From an uncultured Oscillospiraceae bacterium (GTDB lineage: Bacteria > Bacillota > Clostridia > Oscillospirales > Oscillospiraceae): a stretch of 42,046 nt of DNA. Numbering within the stretch: the stretch's first letter is position 1; each line of letters starts with the position of its first letter. The notes beneath the pieces are model-generated. The model ran no database searches, was not told where the DNA came from, and saw only the letters and a program-made list of their open reading frames with translations. Where the stretch lies: the NCBI GenBank assembly GCA_944385395.1, contig CALWXA010000096.1:1-42046 (forward strand), in the 5' to 3' direction. The translations under genes and the position numbers were made by a program. Shown in pieces: positions 31,229 through 37,818 of this stretch.

Positions 31229-32458
31229 TTATACCACCTGGAACAGGTAGAATTTCAGATAGCTGGTCTCCTCTACACCCCAGAGGATGGGATGGTCACA
31301 GCTTTGCTGCCGGGCTTCGATCTGCCGCAGCTGCACCCCGGCGTCTTTGGCGGCGTCGGCAAGCATCTTGCGGAACAGCTCCTCCGTAGCAAAATGGCTG
31401 CAGGAGCAGGTGGCCAGATACCCGCCCCGGGGCAGCAGCTTCATGGCCCGGTAATTCAGCTCCTTGTAGCCGCTCATGGCGTTGGCCACGGTTTTCCGGC
31501 TCTTGGTAAAGGCCGGCGGGTCCAGAATGATGAAATCGTACCGCCGGGGCTCCTGTTCCAACCGGGGCAGCAGATCAAATACATTTTCCGCCACGCACTC
31601 CATCACGTCTGCAAGGCCATTGATCCGGGCGTTTTCCCGTGCCATGGCCACGGCGGATTCCGAAACATCCACCGCCGTCACGTGCCGGGCGCCGCCCCGG
31701 GCGGCGTTGAGGGCAAAGGACCCGGTGTGGGTAAAGCAGTCCAGCACCGTCCGGCCCGCCGCCAGCCGTGCCACCGCCCGGCGGTTGTATTTTTGATCCA
31801 GGAAAAAGCCGGTTTTCTGTCCGTTTTCCACATCTACCGTGTACCGGATGCCGTTTTCCAGAATCTCCGTCAGGGGGCTATCCGGCACCGGCTCCCCCGG
31901 CAGGGGATACCAGCCCTTGCCCTGCTCCATGCCTTCCAGCTCCCGGATGGCCACATCGTTGCGCAGATAGATGCCCCGGATGTCCTGCCCGTCCCGGCGC
32001 AGGATGTCCGCCAGTGCCGGCAGGATCACATCCTGCCGCTGTTCCATGCCCAAGGACAGCACCTGTACCGACAGAAGATCGTTGAACCGGTCTACCGTGA
32101 GACCCGGGAAGTGATCGGCTTCCCCGAAGATGAGGCGGCAGCAGCGGCTGTCCTCCGGCCCCATAACGGTCTTGCGGTAGTCCCAGGCGTACTGCAGCCG
32201 CCGGCGCCAGAAGGCCTCGTCGAAGGTGTCGTTGGCGTTGCGGCTGATGAGCCGTACCCGGATTTTGGAGTGGCTGTTGTAGAAGCCGGCCCCCAGCCAG
32301 CTGCCTTTGGGACTGAGTACGTCCACAATGCTGCCGTCGGCGATGTCACCGGAGAGCCCCGTCACCTCTCCTTCATAGACCCAGGGATGCCCGCCCCGAA
32401 TGGCGGCTTCCCCCTTCCGGGTGATGGTGATGTGGGGATAGGGACGTTGGGTTTTCAT
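31229..32458 (-). CDS. RlmI-type class I SAM-dependent rRNA methyltransferase
   Basis: A 409-residue enzyme of the COG1092 group (RlmI/YwbD-like), related to 23S rRNA m5C methyltransferases. The N-terminal PUA domain (about 8-80, with GHPWVYEGEV) binds RNA; the catalytic domain has DCFTHTGSFALNAARGG (motif I), DPPAFTKS (motif IV) and CSCSHF with the expected cysteine. The ribosome binding site is weak (AGGAAAG at a long distance), but the start fits the family. It starts 41 bases after the reverse-strand antiporter gene and so may be read from the same riboswitch-controlled promoter. Confidence 0.88.
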   Translation of the reverse strand: MKTQRPYPHITITRKGEAAIRGGHPWVYEGEVTGLSGDIADGSIVDVLSPKGSWLGAGFYNSHSKIRVRLISRNANDTFDEAFWRRRLQYAWDYRKTVMGPEDSRCCRLIFGEADHFPGLTVDRFNDLLSVQVLSLGMEQRQDVILPALADILRRDGQDIRGIYLRNDVAIRELEGMEQGKGWYPLPGEPVPDSPLTEILENGIRYTVDVENGQKTGFFLDQKYNRRAVARLAAGRTVLDCFTHTGSFALNAARGGARHVTAVDVSESAVAMARENARINGLADVMECVAENVFDLLPRLEQEPRRYDFIILDPPAFTKSRKTVANAMSGYKELNYRAMKLLPRGGYLATCSCSHFATEELFRKMLADAAKDAGVQLRQIEARQQSCDHPILWGVEETSYLKFYLFQVV

Positions 32459-32499
32459 AGCGGTACACCGGCTTTCCTGAAAGAGTTTATGTATGAGGA

Positions 32500-32961
32500 T
32501 TATACCACATCCGCCGTCTCGGCGCTACTCCTGCGCAGCAGCCTGCGGTAAGTAAGATCGATGCCCAGGGCGCCCAGGGGTGCGGTGATGAGGATGGCCA
32601 GCCCAGCGCCCATCAGCGCCGCCTCCTGGTGGGTAATGCCCAGAAACCGGGGCCCCAGCAGGAAAAAGGCCAGAATCTCGAAGGAGGCCGGTACAAAGGA
32701 CATGAGGATGGCGGGACGGCCCATCTTCCGCAGATCCGAAAGGTTCAGGGAAAGTCCGGCTTTGAGCAGAATGATGATCAGGGCCATCTGCCGCAGTTCG
32801 GCGGAGATGGCAAGAATGGATGGGTCCAGCAGATTCAGCACATAGGGCCCCAGCAGGATACCGGTAAAGAGCATACCGATGATCCGGGGCAGACGGCACC
32901 ATTGACATAATGCGGCGGCGGCCAGACCAGCCAGAAAAATCAGAGCCAGAGAAGTCAGCAT
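32500..32961 (-). CDS. Cation:proton antiporter, internally deleted
   Basis: A 153-residue protein that begins like CPA-type Na+/H+ antiporters (RLPRIIGMLFTGILLGP, then ELRQMALIIILLKAGLSL, then EILAFFLLGP) up to about residue 118 (QEAALMGA). It then passes directly into a segment that looks like the normal C-terminal end (LITAPLGALGIDLTYRRLL, 124-142). Full-length members have about 400 residues, so about 240 middle residues, including the ion-binding Asp region, appear to be lost in frame near 32600-32610. AAGGAGG nine bases before the ATG at 32961 is intact. It is controlled by a fluoride-riboswitch-like leader. Transport activity is doubtful. Confidence 0.75.
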   Translation of the reverse strand: MLTSLALIFLAGLAAAALCQWCRLPRIIGMLFTGILLGPYVLNLLDPSILAISAELRQMALIIILLKAGLSLNLSDLRKMGRPAILMSFVPASFEILAFFLLGPRFLGITHQEAALMGAGLAILITAPLGALGIDLTYRRLLRRSSAETADVV

Positions 32962-32984
32962 GGAAAAAATCCTCCTTAACACGC

Positions 32985-33073
32985 AAAAAGCCGATGCCTT
33001 CTGCGATGAAATCACAGAAGGCATCAGCTGATAGCAGCGGTTTAGGTTTCCCAGGGGAGAACTTCATTCCCGG
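32985..33073 (-). promoter_or_regulatory. Fluoride riboswitch (crcB motif) with terminator
   Basis: Read on the reverse strand. P1 is GGGA (33071-33068) with UCCC (33058-33055), and its loop is AUGAAGUUC. A short GGGAAACC mini-hairpin follows, then UAAACC. P3 is GCUG/CAGC around CUAU (33038-33027), then UGAUGCCUUCUG, where CUUC can pair with GAAG of the P1 loop as in the crcB pseudoknot. This closely follows the known pattern (AUGGAGUUC ... AAAC ... GCUGCUUAGC ... AAUGACUCCU). The platform is a 15-bp terminator (33029-32989) whose left arm shares the P3 and pseudoknot bases and which ends in a T run, just before the antiporter ribosome binding site. Confidence 0.85.
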
Positions 33074-33079
33074 AGATTA

Positions 33080-33108
33080 TTTATACAATATTTTGGAGGA
33101 TTTGTAAA
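33080..33108 (-). promoter_or_regulatory. Promoter of the riboswitch-antiporter transcript
   Basis: On the reverse strand TTTACA (33108-33103), 17 bases, TATAAA (33085-33080). Confidence 0.78.
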
Positions 33109-33111
33109 TCC
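33098..33111. promoter_or_regulatory. 14-bp palindrome over the antiporter -35
   Basis: GGATTTGTAAATCC is a perfect palindrome that includes the -35 hexamer. It may be a repressor site or a chance feature. Confidence 0.35.
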
Positions 33112-33143
33112 CCTTTTTTCCTGACAGGAAAGATTCTCCCATT

Positions 33144-33163
33144 GGGGAAATGCGACTTTCCCC
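33144..33163. promoter_or_regulatory. Inverted repeat upstream of the rny promoter
   Basis: GGGGAAA, TGCGAC, TTTCCCC: a 7-6-7 inverted repeat ending next to the -35 of rny at 33164. Candidate activator or repressor site. Confidence 0.4.
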
Positions 33164-33192
33164 TTGACAGGTATACAGGATACAGATAAAAT
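33164..33192 (+). promoter_or_regulatory. Sigma-A promoter of rny
   Basis: TTGACA (33164-33169), 17 bases, TAAAAT (33187-33192). Confidence 0.85.
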
Positions 33193-33206
33193 AAGAAAAG
33201 ATGATT

Positions 33207-33277
33207 ATTGGGAGATTAGGGGAATCGCCCAATTATTTTCTGCCTGAAGGGAATTGCCCGGCGGGGCAGTTCTTTTT
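33207..33277 (+). promoter_or_regulatory. Structured rny leader with terminator-like hairpin
   Basis: A first hairpin ATTGGG/CCCAAT (33207-33233, inner GATT/AATC) is followed by GAATTGCCC, GGCG, GGGCAGTTC and TTTTT (33251-33277), a terminator-like structure 35 bases before the start codon. CTGCC at about 33239-33243 could instead pair with GGCAG in the right arm. GGGAAT(C/T)GCCC occurs twice (33220-33230, 33249-33259). I recognise no named riboswitch. Confidence 0.6.
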
Positions 33278-33311
33278 CCATACAAAAAAGCAAATAGGAG
33301 GAGACCAAACC

Positions 33312-34862
33312 ATGACCACCATGGGCTACATTGTAGCAGCCGTTGTGGCCGTCGTGTCCTGCGTTGTTTGGTTCCCTCTCGGCATTCACTACCGTAAGCG
33401 CGTTGCGGAGAAAGAAATCTCCAGCGCAGAAGAAGAAGCCACGCGGATTATCAACGAAGCCATCAAGAGTTCTGAAAATAAGAAGCGCGAAGCCCTTCTG
33501 GAGGCAAAAGAAGAGATCCTAAAGTCTCGCAGTGAATACGAGAAGGAAGTCAAGGAGCGCCGGGCAGACCTGCAGAAGCAGGAGCGCCGGCTGCAGCAGA
33601 AGGAAGAAAACATCGATCATAAAACGGAAGCTCTGGAAAAGAAGGAAGAGGCTCTCAACGCCAAGCACGCCGCTGTGGATAAGGAGCAGGAAGAGATCAA
33701 GCTCATCAAGCGCAGCCAGACGGAGATGCTGGAGCGGATCTCCGGCTTCACCGCTGAGCAGGCCAAGGATTACCTCATCAGCCAGGTGGAAGCGGAAGTC
33801 ACCCACGAGACCGCTATGAAGATCAAGGAGATCGAGTCCCGGGCCAAGGAAGAGGCCGATCAGCGTGCCCGTGAGATCGTAGCCACCGCCATCCAGCGCT
33901 GTGCCGCCGACCACGTGGCCGAAATCACCGTCAGTGTGGTACCCCTGCCCAATGACGAGATGAAGGGCCGCATCATCGGCCGGGAAGGCCGCAACATCCG
34001 CACGCTGGAGACCCTTACCGGCGCCGACCTCATCATCGATGATACCCCGGAAGCCATTACCGTTTCCTGCTTTGAGCCGGTCCGCCGTGAGATCGCCCGG
34101 CTGGCTCTGGAAAAGCTCATTGCCGACGGCCGCATCCATCCCACCCATATTGAGGAGATGGTGGAGAAGGCCCGCCGTGAGGTGGATGCCGTCATCCGCT
34201 CTGAAGGCGAGCGCGCCGTGCTGGAGACCGGTGTCCGGTCCCTGCACCCGGAGCTGCAGAAGCTGCTGGGCCGGCTGCATTACCGTACCAGCTACGGCCA
34301 GAACGTGCTGCAGCACTCCATTGAAGTGTCTCACATCGCCGGCATGATGGCCGCCGAGCTGGGCGCCGACGTGAATGCCGCCAAGCGTGCCGGCCTCCTG
34401 CATGATATCGGCAAGGCCGTGGACCACGAGCTGGAAGGCACCCATGTGTCCCTGGGCGTGGAGTTCTGCCGGAAATACCGGGAGAAGGAAGAAATCATCC
34501 ATGCCATCCAGGCCCACCACGGCGACGTGGAGTGCAAGACTTTGGTGGCCTGCCTGGTCCAGGCGGCCGACGCCATTTCCGCCGCCCGTCCCGGTGCCCG
34601 CCGTGAGAATCTGGAGAACTACATCAAGCGTCTGCAGAAGCTGGAGGAGATCACCAGCGATTATCCCGGCGTGGAAAAGAGCTATGCCATCCAGGCCGGC
34701 CGTGAGGTGCGGGTGATGGTGAAGCCCGAGCAGGTGCCGGAAGATCAGATGGTGATCCTGGCCCGTGAGATGGCTAAGCGCATCGAAAACGAGCTGGAGT
34801 ATCCCGGTCAGATCAAGGTTCACGTGCTGCGTGAGACCAAGGTCGTGGAATACGCCAAATAA
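33312..34862 (+). CDS. rny: Ribonuclease Y
   Basis: A 516-residue membrane-anchored endoribonuclease that starts mRNA decay in Firmicutes. An N-terminal span (about 5-24) is followed by a long coiled coil (about 30-190), a KH domain with [15 protein letters not shown], and an HD domain with the metal-binding LLHDIGKA (His364, Asp365). The C-terminal region is complete. The ATG at 33312 has AGGAGG about nine bases before it; an upstream frame extension covers the leader hairpins and is not family-like. Monocistronic. ymdB, next to rny in Bacillus, is 3 kb downstream here. Confidence 0.97.
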
Positions 34863-34925: not shown

Positions 34926-36110
34926 TCAGTCATTCCAACCGAAGATCCGCACCACCCACTGCTTGGTGTAGTAGTAGGCGCTGACGGGATAGTTCCGGTA
35001 GTTGGACGTGTTGGAACAGATGAGATAGTCAATGGTGTCTCCATTTGCATCGGTGATAGGCTGGGCGATGACGGTGGTGTGCTCCATACCCTCGGCACCC
35101 ATGATGAGGATATCACCGGCCTGGCCGTCATAGTAATTGGCGTTGGCGTTAGCCACCAGGCCGTACCCGGTGTTGGTCTGGGCGTAGTCCATGAAATCAC
35201 CCACGTTGATCCAGGAGAAATGCATATAGACGTCGGTATGCCAGAACCACTGGGCATCGCCGGTCTCGTCCATGGGGATACCGCCGGCGTGAAGCACCTG
35301 GGAGCCAAAGTTCTGGCAGTTGCCTCCCAGATCGTCATATACCATCCACTGGCTGCTGCGGTCCTGAATATACAGCTGCATATAGGTGTAGGCGGCCTGC
35401 CGGTCATAATCGTGATCCCAGGTGAGATCCACGGCGGCCCCGGCGCTGCTGCGCTGTGCCTGACGCTGGGCGATGTTCTGCAGGAATTCATCCAGCCGTG
35501 CGTCACATCCGGCCGCTTCGTCGTAGACAAAGTTGTAGTATGCGCCGCCTTCACAGCTGTGGCTGTCAATCAGCCAGCTGCCGTCTCCGCTTTGCGCCAT
35601 GGTGAAATAGTGCAGTGTACCGTATTCCTCACTGTCCACATCCTCCGTACCGGCAAAGTGGGTAACGGCGTCCTCTGTGATGGTGAGGGTCACGGTACCG
35701 TCCTCGTGCTCCTCCACATCCGTGATGGTCAGCGTGAAGTCATAGTCCACCAGGTGCAGATCGATGAGGGAGGCTTCCCGGACAGCAATGAGGCTGCGCC
35801 ATACCGCTTCATTCCAGTCTGCCTCTACAACGGATACGAACAGGTCATCGCAGCTCCCCTCGGTGAGGTTTCCCACGGCCTGATAGTAGCGGTGCATGAA
35901 TACCAGAACAGGCTGAACCATGGCAGCATCCACCTGGGCGGAGGACTCGCTGAATTTGCCGCTTCCTACGCAGCCTTCCGGCTCCGGGGTCTGCACCACC
36001 TGCGAAACCTGGGGCGTGTCGTCCGGTTCCTCTGCTGCTTCCTGCCCACAGCCGGGCACAAGCCCTGCCAGACAGGCAGCGAAAATCAAACACAACAATT
36101 TTCTTTTCAT
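34926..36110 (-). CDS. Amidase-domain lipoprotein, paralogue 1
   Basis: A 394-residue secreted lipoprotein. The signal peptide (MKRKLLCLIFAACLAG) ends in the lipobox VPGC with Cys21. A middle domain (about 60-235) precedes a putative amidase domain of the PF12671 type: DYDRQAAYTYMQLY, GGNCQNFGSQVLHAGG with the likely catalytic Cys, SWINVGDF, GDILIM, and HTTVI with the likely His. The end, QWVVRIFGWND, is shared with the divergent paralogue. It probably cleaves cell-wall peptide or amide bonds outside the cell; substrate unknown. AAGGAG precedes the ATG. Confidence 0.87.
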   Translation of the reverse strand: MKRKLLCLIFAACLAGLVPGCGQEAAEEPDDTPQVSQVVQTPEPEGCVGSGKFSESSAQVDAAMVQPVLVFMHRYYQAVGNLTEGSCDDLFVSVVEADWNEAVWRSLIAVREASLIDLHLVDYDFTLTITDVEEHEDGTVTLTITEDAVTHFAGTEDVDSEEYGTLHYFTMAQSGDGSWLIDSHSCEGGAYYNFVYDEAAGCDARLDEFLQNIAQRQAQRSSAGAAVDLTWDHDYDRQAAYTYMQLYIQDRSSQWMVYDDLGGNCQNFGSQVLHAGGIPMDETGDAQWFWHTDVYMHFSWINVGDFMDYAQTNTGYGLVANANANYYDGQAGDILIMGAEGMEHTTVIAQPITDANGDTIDYLICSNTSNYRNYPVSAYYYTKQWVVRIFGWND

Positions 36111-36249: not shown

Positions 36250-36278
36250 TTGCAAAACCGGCAGAAGTTTGTCATATT
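36250..36278 (+). promoter_or_regulatory. Candidate promoter of paralogue 2
   Basis: TTGCAA (36250-36255), 17 bases, CATATT (36273-36278), 32 bases before the GTG start. The gap 36111-36309 also must hold the reverse promoter; TATATT near 36170 is a weak candidate. Confidence 0.55.
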
Positions 36279-36309
36279 AAGAGATAAGACAGGAAGGGAG
36301 GACGTGCCT

Positions 36310-37818
36310 GTGAAGCGAAGAGCACTGAGTTTGCTGCTGATCCTCTGCCTGCTGCTGACGGCCTGCGGGACTACTGCGGATCCCCAGCAGGAGCAGCCGG
36401 TAACGCCCGGTGTGGAGACAGATCCCGACCCCGATGAAAAGAATCCCACAGACCCTACCGGTTCAAAAGATCCCACGGACCCCAATGCCCCTGAAGACCC
36501 GGACTCTTCCATAGATCCGGAAAATCCCGGTACTTCCCAGGATCCCGAGGACCCTGAGCCGTCCAAACCTTCCACGAATCCCGATCAGCCTGGCTATGAA
36601 CCGCCGGATATCGTATCGCCTCAGCACGAGCGGATCCGTGGCGCCGCCAGCCACGGCCTCTCTGTGGGCATGGAGGATGTGCTGCTGGCATTGCAGGAGC
36701 TTTACTATCAGTCCCTGACCAAGTTGGAAGTACAGCCCTGCGGCGCCTATTTCTCCGCAGATACTCAGGCCAAATGGCATGAAGCGGTGTGGCGCAGCCT
36801 CATCGCTGTCCGGGAGGCCTCCCTCATCGATCTGCACCTGGTGGACTACGACTTTACCCTGCGCTGCACCGGCGCCCGGTGGAAAGGCGACCGGGAGATC
36901 CATATCACGGCGGTGGAGGATGTGGCCATGTGGTTTGCCGCCACAGCGGATGTCACCAGCCGCCAGCAGGGCGTGGTCCATACCTTTGTGCTTTCCCGTA
37001 CCGGCCAGGATACCTGGAAGATCAAGGAGCACATGGCCGATGACAACCCCTATGCCAGCTTCTCCTATGACAGCGGCGCCGGCTGCGATAAGCGGCTGTC
37101 CACCTTCCTGAGCAATATTGCCCAGCGCCAGTCCCAGCGTGGCGGTGCCGGCGGCGGAACCAGCCTTACCTGGGACCACGATTACGACCGCCAGGCAGCT
37201 TTGAGCTATATGCGGCAGTATGCCCTGCAGCGCAACGGCGACTGGATGGCCTATGACAGTGCCGGCGGCAACTGCCAGAATTTCGGTTCCCAGGTGCTCT
37301 ATGCCGGCGGTATCCCCATGGATCAGGAGGGAGACGCCCAGTGGTACTGGAACAGCCACGGCGACCAGAACTATTCCTGGATCAATGCAGGCAACTTCAT
37401 GAACTATGCCCGGAGCAATACCGGGTACGGGCTGGTGGCCGATGCCAATGCCAATTACTATGACGGCCAGACCGGTGATATCCTGGTGATGGGCAACGGC
37501 AATTATGCCCATACCACGGTGATCTCCCGTCCCATCACCGACGGCAGCGGCGCCACTGTGGACTACCTCATCTGCTCCAATACCACGGATTATCTGGATT
37601 TCCCTGCCAGTGCCTATTATTATACCCAGCAATGGGTGGTGCGAATCTTCGGCTGGAATGATATGCCGGTGATAGATCCCGGTGGTGATGGCGGCGACGG
37701 CGGCGATGGTGGAGAAGAGGGTGAAACCACCGATCCTACCGACCCTGCGGATCCTGGCGATACCGAAACACCTCCCGAGAATGGAGAAACACCAGTGAAT
37801 ACCAATCCTGAGGAATGA
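36310..37818 (+). CDS. Amidase-domain lipoprotein, paralogue 2
   Basis: A 502-residue lipoprotein, signal VKRRALSLLLILCLL and lipobox LTAC (Cys19). A Pro/Asp-rich spacer (about 25-100) of the wall-spanning type precedes the same middle and amidase domains as in paralogue 1, with GGNCQNFGSQVLYAGG and HTTVI, and the C-terminal YFWGW-type end is extended by a low-complexity tail (GGDGGDGGDGG and a TDP repeat). The GTG at 36310 is chosen because AAGGGAGG lies eight bases before it; a GTG two codons earlier is too close. It is divergent from paralogue 1. Confidence 0.87.
   Translation: MKRRALSLLLILCLLLTACGTTADPQQEQPVTPGVETDPDPDEKNPTDPTGSKDPTDPNAPEDPDSSIDPENPGTSQDPEDPEPSKPSTNPDQPGYEPPDIVSPQHERIRGAASHGLSVGMEDVLLALQELYYQSLTKLEVQPCGAYFSADTQAKWHEAVWRSLIAVREASLIDLHLVDYDFTLRCTGARWKGDREIHITAVEDVAMWFAATADVTSRQQGVVHTFVLSRTGQDTWKIKEHMADDNPYASFSYDSGAGCDKRLSTFLSNIAQRQSQRGGAGGGTSLTWDHDYDRQAALSYMRQYALQRNGDWMAYDSAGGNCQNFGSQVLYAGGIPMDQEGDAQWYWNSHGDQNYSWINAGNFMNYARSNTGYGLVADANANYYDGQTGDILVMGNGNYAHTTVISRPITDGSGATVDYLICSNTTDYLDFPASAYYYTQQWVVRIFGWNDMPVIDPGGDGGDGGDGGEEGETTDPTDPADPGDTETPPENGETPVNTNPEE

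Follow-up and report, generated by a model that had tools for sequence, protein, structure and literature searches.

The window, i.e. the whole stretch of 42,046 nucleotides from an uncultured Oscillospiraceae bacterium that was analysed here, carries on its minus strand a short open reading frame (ORF) related to Na+/H+ antiporters, which is preceded by a fluoride riboswitch and located between the genes for an RlmI-like methyltransferase and a divergently encoded ribonuclease Y. The following features make up the locus:

31229..32458, minus strand: neighbouring gene rlmI, RlmI-like methyltransferase (PUA_3 and Methyltrans_SAM domains)
32499..32507, minus strand: extended -10 box of rlmI, TGGTATAAT, overlapping the stop codon of the short ORF
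32500..32961, minus strand: ORF of 153 amino acids plus stop, antiporter with an internal in-frame deletion (from the ORF list, PF00999 and 80 related loci)
32503..32601, minus strand: retained C-terminal part, residues 121-153 (from alignment and tail comparison)
32596..32610, minus strand: fusion point, codons GGC GCT GGG CTG GCC (from codon comparison and repeat measurement)
32605..32961, minus strand: retained N-terminal part, residues 1-119 (from identity with the related locus L019)
32971..32976, minus strand: ribosome binding site AGGAGG (located by script)
32989..33029, minus strand: intrinsic terminator hairpin, the expression platform of the riboswitch (19-pair stem, loop of 3, T tail)
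33008..33080, minus strand: fluoride riboswitch aptamer (RF01734)
33080..33108, minus strand: promoter of the antiporter transcript, TTTACA at 33108-33103, 17-nt spacer, TATAAA at 33085-33080 (located by script)
33164..33192, plus strand: promoter of rny, TTGACA-17-TAAAAT (from a sequence scan)
33312..34862, plus strand: divergent neighbour rny, ribonuclease Y (PF12072, E 6.3e-65)

An earlier note on this DNA had described the promoter, riboswitch, ribosome binding site and reading frame as intact, and this was borne out: the promoter and the ribosome binding site were both located, all 153 codons are open, and by covariance model the aptamer is a full-length member of the fluoride riboswitch family (40.5 bits, gathering score 34, E 5.8e-8, model positions 1-64 of 64). 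Fluoride binding and induction are predicted from this membership. The RNA fold of the untranslated region gave a z of -6.09. The antiporter promoter is absent from the consensus scan list, as the scan rule demands a T as the final base of the -10 box. In the presence of fluoride, the transcript should still escape termination through the riboswitch, and the 153-residue product would still be translated.

Composition of the 153-residue protein

The removal of the middle of the ORF in frame, as proposed in the earlier note, was found to be real, and so was the assignment of the first 118 residues to the N-terminal half of an antiporter. Residues 1-119 align with the start of CPA2/NHA2-type antiporters of ~400 amino acids (80 related loci), with 97 of 118 residues identical to L019, the best identity thus being 82% over 118 residues. 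Residues 8-123 match the Pfam family Na_H_Exchanger (PF00999; E 1.7e-12, 47.3 bits, cut-off 26.2) over positions 4-115 of the 375 in the profile; the full-length L019 protein covers positions 5-363. Judged by similarity over the whole fold, the short ORF would not be placed among the CPA2 / Na_H_Exchanger antiporters. Against TIGR00932 (cut-off 238.3) it reached 32 bits, and L019 likewise stayed under the cut-off at 51.6 bits.

The last 35 residues, which had also been described as antiporter-like, are so only in part: residues 121-144, LAILITAPLGALGIDLTYRRLLRR, align with the antiporter C-terminus, whereas the final nine (SSAETADVV) fall where the tails of the relatives vary freely. The extended -10 box of rlmI falls on these last codons. 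An alternative alignment puts the junction about six residues further on; residue 120 was kept as the fusion because LAILITAPLGA equals the C-terminal consensus of the relatives.

By the in-register distance in L019, the missing stretch amounts to ~253 residues or 759 nt, nearly two thirds of the gene length, so that the large gap reported earlier stands while its estimate of about 240 residues was slightly low. As the earlier note had it, the ion-binding site is missing: the deleted stretch includes D158-D159, of which D158 is invariant and D159 nearly so in the alignment of relatives, and which we take to be the ion-binding Asp-Asp pair of CPA2 antiporters. In the L019 model, the deletion further takes away every helix between 126 and 359, together with the beginning of the last one (365-394). 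Having lost the Asp-Asp pair and the helix that bears it, the latter half of the first broken helix and almost everything else of the fold, the 153-residue product should lack antiporter function, and transport would be lost.

The AlphaFold2 model of the short form has a mean pLDDT of 68.6 and a pTM of 0.37, a low score that may have other causes in a short chimera, and Foldseek returned no PDB match for it at E <= 0.001. Helices are predicted for most of the chain, one of them running continuously across the fusion at 111-141. The model of a full-length relative reached a mean pLDDT of 80.4 and a pTM of 0.78, and folds like NHA2 (SLC9B2; 7b4l, 7p1i), the structures of which are the nearest to the full-length family among those solved (profile E 4.6e-50, Foldseek E 4.9e-16). 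Most of the NHA2 fold is absent from the window protein, and so is the Asp-Asp helix.

Related antiporters and the break points

Relatives were collected by a scan of one genome per species in 84,980 species, from which the best 80 of 138 related stretches were kept. A fluoride riboswitch was found within about 260 nt upstream of the antiporter in 19 of 20 related loci scanned, L020 remaining below score, and the aptamer and terminator region of the window aligns well with those of eight relatives. The closest known systems are the fluoride-riboswitch-linked Na+/H+ antiporters of Bacillota (e.g. L019 from an uncultured Faecalibacterium and L017 from Ca. Ventrimonas), which have a similar aptamer and terminator as well as the same C-terminal motif, and are up to 82% identical over the first 118 residues; their proteins are ~400 residues long, and that of the window is shorter by about 253. 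A review on C. difficile describes one fluoride riboswitch as controlling both a CLC-type gene and an antiporter of the NhaP type (PMC11477304), and the intact riboswitch-antiporter gene is of an already known kind. A deleted fluoride antiporter was not found described in the literature searched by title and start of abstract. The terminator-region pattern gave no matches when searched against viral contigs.

A full-length frame is present in 73 of the best 80 relatives, including L071, which reaches the contig end at residue 394. Among the seven others, the frames of L044 and L074 run off the contig, the match of L034 stops 75 nt short of the contig end, L026 has an altered C-terminus, and L072 is truncated after residue 156 with no further match within the next 2.9 kb; L064 and L082, described below, complete the seven. 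The fused short form occurs in none of these 80, in a scan that may omit records of the window's own genome or of a very near one. Further matches were obtained from 40 other genomes among 400 of the family (E <= 1e-20) and 64 others among 394 of the order (E <= 1e-25), together 90 distinct genomes, some of which may share species with the 80 loci. All have an open frame of at least 392 save G106 (299), which is the frameshift copy L103, and G770 (175, to the contig end), and no such short form was seen among them, genomes without a retrieved locus being judged on frame length only. In a DNA search, the junction peptide was present in 4 of 168 loci, every one of them the window's own place. 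Homologues of about 150 residues sharing the junction, which the earlier note had considered as the mark of a real short family, were thus looked for and not found in the species, family or order searches. The short ORF would accordingly not belong to a short antiporter family with the same junction, and a widespread family of this kind was rejected.

Damaged copies of other kinds were seen among the relatives. The fluoride-linked antiporter gene of Enterocloster alcoholdehydrogenati (L064:3001-4197) has an in-frame TAG at codon 135, the remaining frame being open, and L082 (3001-4193) and L103 share an identical frameshift near residue 263, where the two parts overlap by a few bases. Together with the truncated L072, L064 and L082 represent other losses of the same gene, but their breaks are nonsense, frameshift or end truncation, whereas that of the window is an internal in-frame deletion.

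At both break points, the 14 relatives listed mostly encode (G/V)-A-V-L-(G/A) in the same frame; the exceptions are L026, which lacks the right-hand site, and L048, which has S in place of the left A. Repeats were measured in 60 of 74 relatives, the other 14 having no VLAIL or VLGIL motif at the end. In 8 of the 60, including the close L019, L021, L017 and L029, the in-register repeat is exact over 10-12 nt; in the other 52 it is below 10 nt, and at least one longer direct repeat lies elsewhere in the gene in 43 of the 60. The repeat makes a deletion plausible at the sequence level, yet the place of the break is not outstanding. The fusion GCT GGG CTG in the window is an inexact copy of the relatives' repeat, with the codon GGG, for which the relatives have V, occurring at neither break point in the 14 listed; a further substitution or an unusual parent is therefore needed. 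Among the direct repeats of at least 10 nt and at least 300 nt apart in the genes of the 74 relatives, 160 of 185 are in frame, counts that are not independent as the genes are related. Direct repeats in this gene family being mostly in frame, the open frame is a weak argument for selection.

In the N-terminal part, the window departs from the relatives at 3 of 68 conserved columns, as compared to 2.3 on average for 22 relatives that have diverged to a similar degree. In a leave-one-out count over all retained columns bar the fusion column, it departs at 3 of 80 conserved ones, and at least as many departures occur in 22 of 74 relatives; with the fusion column included, the figure is 4 of 81. 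This near-normal conservation fits a recent loss and would equally fit a kept protein, speaking only against a long decay. Relaxed constraint on the retained half was considered as well; the conserved-column counts gave no clear sign of it, though the end branch of the window is long (0.36 against a median of 0.12, the closest relative being just 82% identical). In the tree of the first 118 residues, the window fell into no well-supported set of at most half the rows (93/80 with L017), and no donor of the cassette could be named from its 118 columns.

Genomic context in the genus

The window's own genome comprises 1.985 Mb in 104 contigs and is 92.8% complete. A search for a second full-length copy, as suggested in the earlier note, found none in this assembly, the other two matches to the short query being 25% and 35% identical. 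The missing middle was not found there either, a 22% match on contig C63 being the one hit of a full-length query outside the window. Both a further complete copy and a middle segment moved elsewhere in this assembly were consequently rejected. The genome has one fluoride riboswitch over the cut-off and two weak matches (16.2 and 15.5 bits), and no backup CrcB was found in the assembly.

A close relative of the antiporter is present in none of the 31 other genomes of the genus, seven of which have distant matches of 24-38% identity. Three other genus genomes have a fluoride riboswitch over the cut-off, and CrcB was seen in these three alone; the riboswitch was not found in 28 and CrcB not in 29 of the 32 genus genomes, in a survey that included many incomplete drafts and in which 115 first-look candidates per genome were scored for the riboswitch. 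The genus would thus appear to do without fluoride riboswitch and CrcB function, which was counted in favour of gene loss.

The gene rlmI is found in 24 of the 32 genus genomes, the window's own included, at E <= 1e-60. Upstream of it, 21 of the 23 other genus loci have a gene for an N-acetylmuramoyl-L-alanine amidase, and in 20 of these 21 rny follows beyond the amidase, rny not being in reach in L146. In the loci compared (L124-L146), this Amidase_3 and SH3 gene is missing from the window (32459-33311) and from the nearest relative, L124 of genome G007. L124, in which rlmI is 84% and rny 93% identical to those of the window, has a 266-bp gap with neither amidase nor antiporter; similarity of the window to it begins at about 33160. 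In L125 a different ORF lies upstream of rlmI, and rny is not in reach. The interval between rlmI and rny in the window is 853 bp and largely occupied by the cassette. An Rfam scan of 20 of these 23 genus loci gave no match over the cut-off and hence no riboswitch.

Probable gene loss and its alternatives

Taken together, the ORF very probably represents a fluoride-tolerance gene that was recently inactivated by a short-repeat deletion, i.e. a broken allele of an NHA2/CPA2-type antiporter. The riboswitch-antiporter cassette may have been acquired between rlmI and rny, or kept by this lineage alone among those of the genus that were sampled; arrival by horizontal transfer is suggested by the patchy distribution. 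A single deletion, presumably by slippage between two short AVL(G/A) codon copies, would then have removed about 253 codons, and the frame would have stayed open since the two copies are in phase with each other and code for one and the same motif. Among the three readings offered by the earlier note, short-repeat deletion is the best supported, with AVL(G/A) at both breaks and no second copy in the assembly, and is further backed by the near-normal conservation of the remaining residues and by the lack of another short form in the searches. Counted against loss was the undamaged state of promoter, riboswitch and ribosome binding site, which would be expected of a kept gene too. The deletion allele as such is ordinary. 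The locus offers a clean snapshot of a riboswitch-controlled gene dying, in which the switch and the frame outlast the function, and serves as a warning that a frame left open by an internal deletion lends little support to a kept mini-protein.

An assembly artefact or a strain mixture, with an intact gene in the living cells and either a false join of two places within it or a minority deletion path chosen by the assembler, is unlikely. While the genome is a fragmented draft, the two break points are similar in sequence and the retained residues resemble those of a working gene, a repeat of ~10-12 nt should, judging from k-mer sizes, be too short to merge paths in usual assemblers. Moreover, the missing middle lies on no other contig of the assembly, and the fusion codon GGG matches neither break point in the relatives listed.

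Compatible with the deletion reading, the coding part could be dead and the fluoride switch now drive rlmI by read-through, given that both are on the same strand with a 41-nt gap and no terminator-like site found in between. This seems distinctly improbable, as rlmI retains an extended -10 promoter of its own, like its genus relatives (TGTGxTAxAAT upstream of rlmI in 9 of 9 listed, out of 23), and the same layout would predate the deletion.

Very doubtful is a real mini-protein, i.e. a 153-residue membrane protein kept under fluoride control for a new use (as inhibitor, chaperone or stress peptide), for although its regulatory elements (promoter, riboswitch, terminator and ribosome binding site) are intact, its frame open, its residues conserved and helices predicted over most of its length, including the continuous helix at 111-141, it was found in no other genome examined, its model is of low confidence and matched no structure at E <= 0.001, no full-length partner from the antiporter family was found in its own assembly, and a repeat deletion in an antiporter gene of this kind usually leaves the frame open. 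The mini-protein reading has no positive support of its own, and ordinary recent gene loss is most likely, rather than a new kind of small protein. There is only a slight chance that the deletion, by joining the first half of a broken helix to the last helix, gave rise to a compact newborn fluoride-inducible membrane protein kept by the riboswitch; were the cell indeed to keep such a product, a deletion would have created a new small membrane protein.

Elsewhere in the window, beyond rny, two divergent adjoining ORFs (34926-36110 on the minus and 36250-37818 on the plus strand) have clearly similar C-terminal halves (WDHDYDRQAA...NCQNFGSQVL...) and are an apparent duplication.
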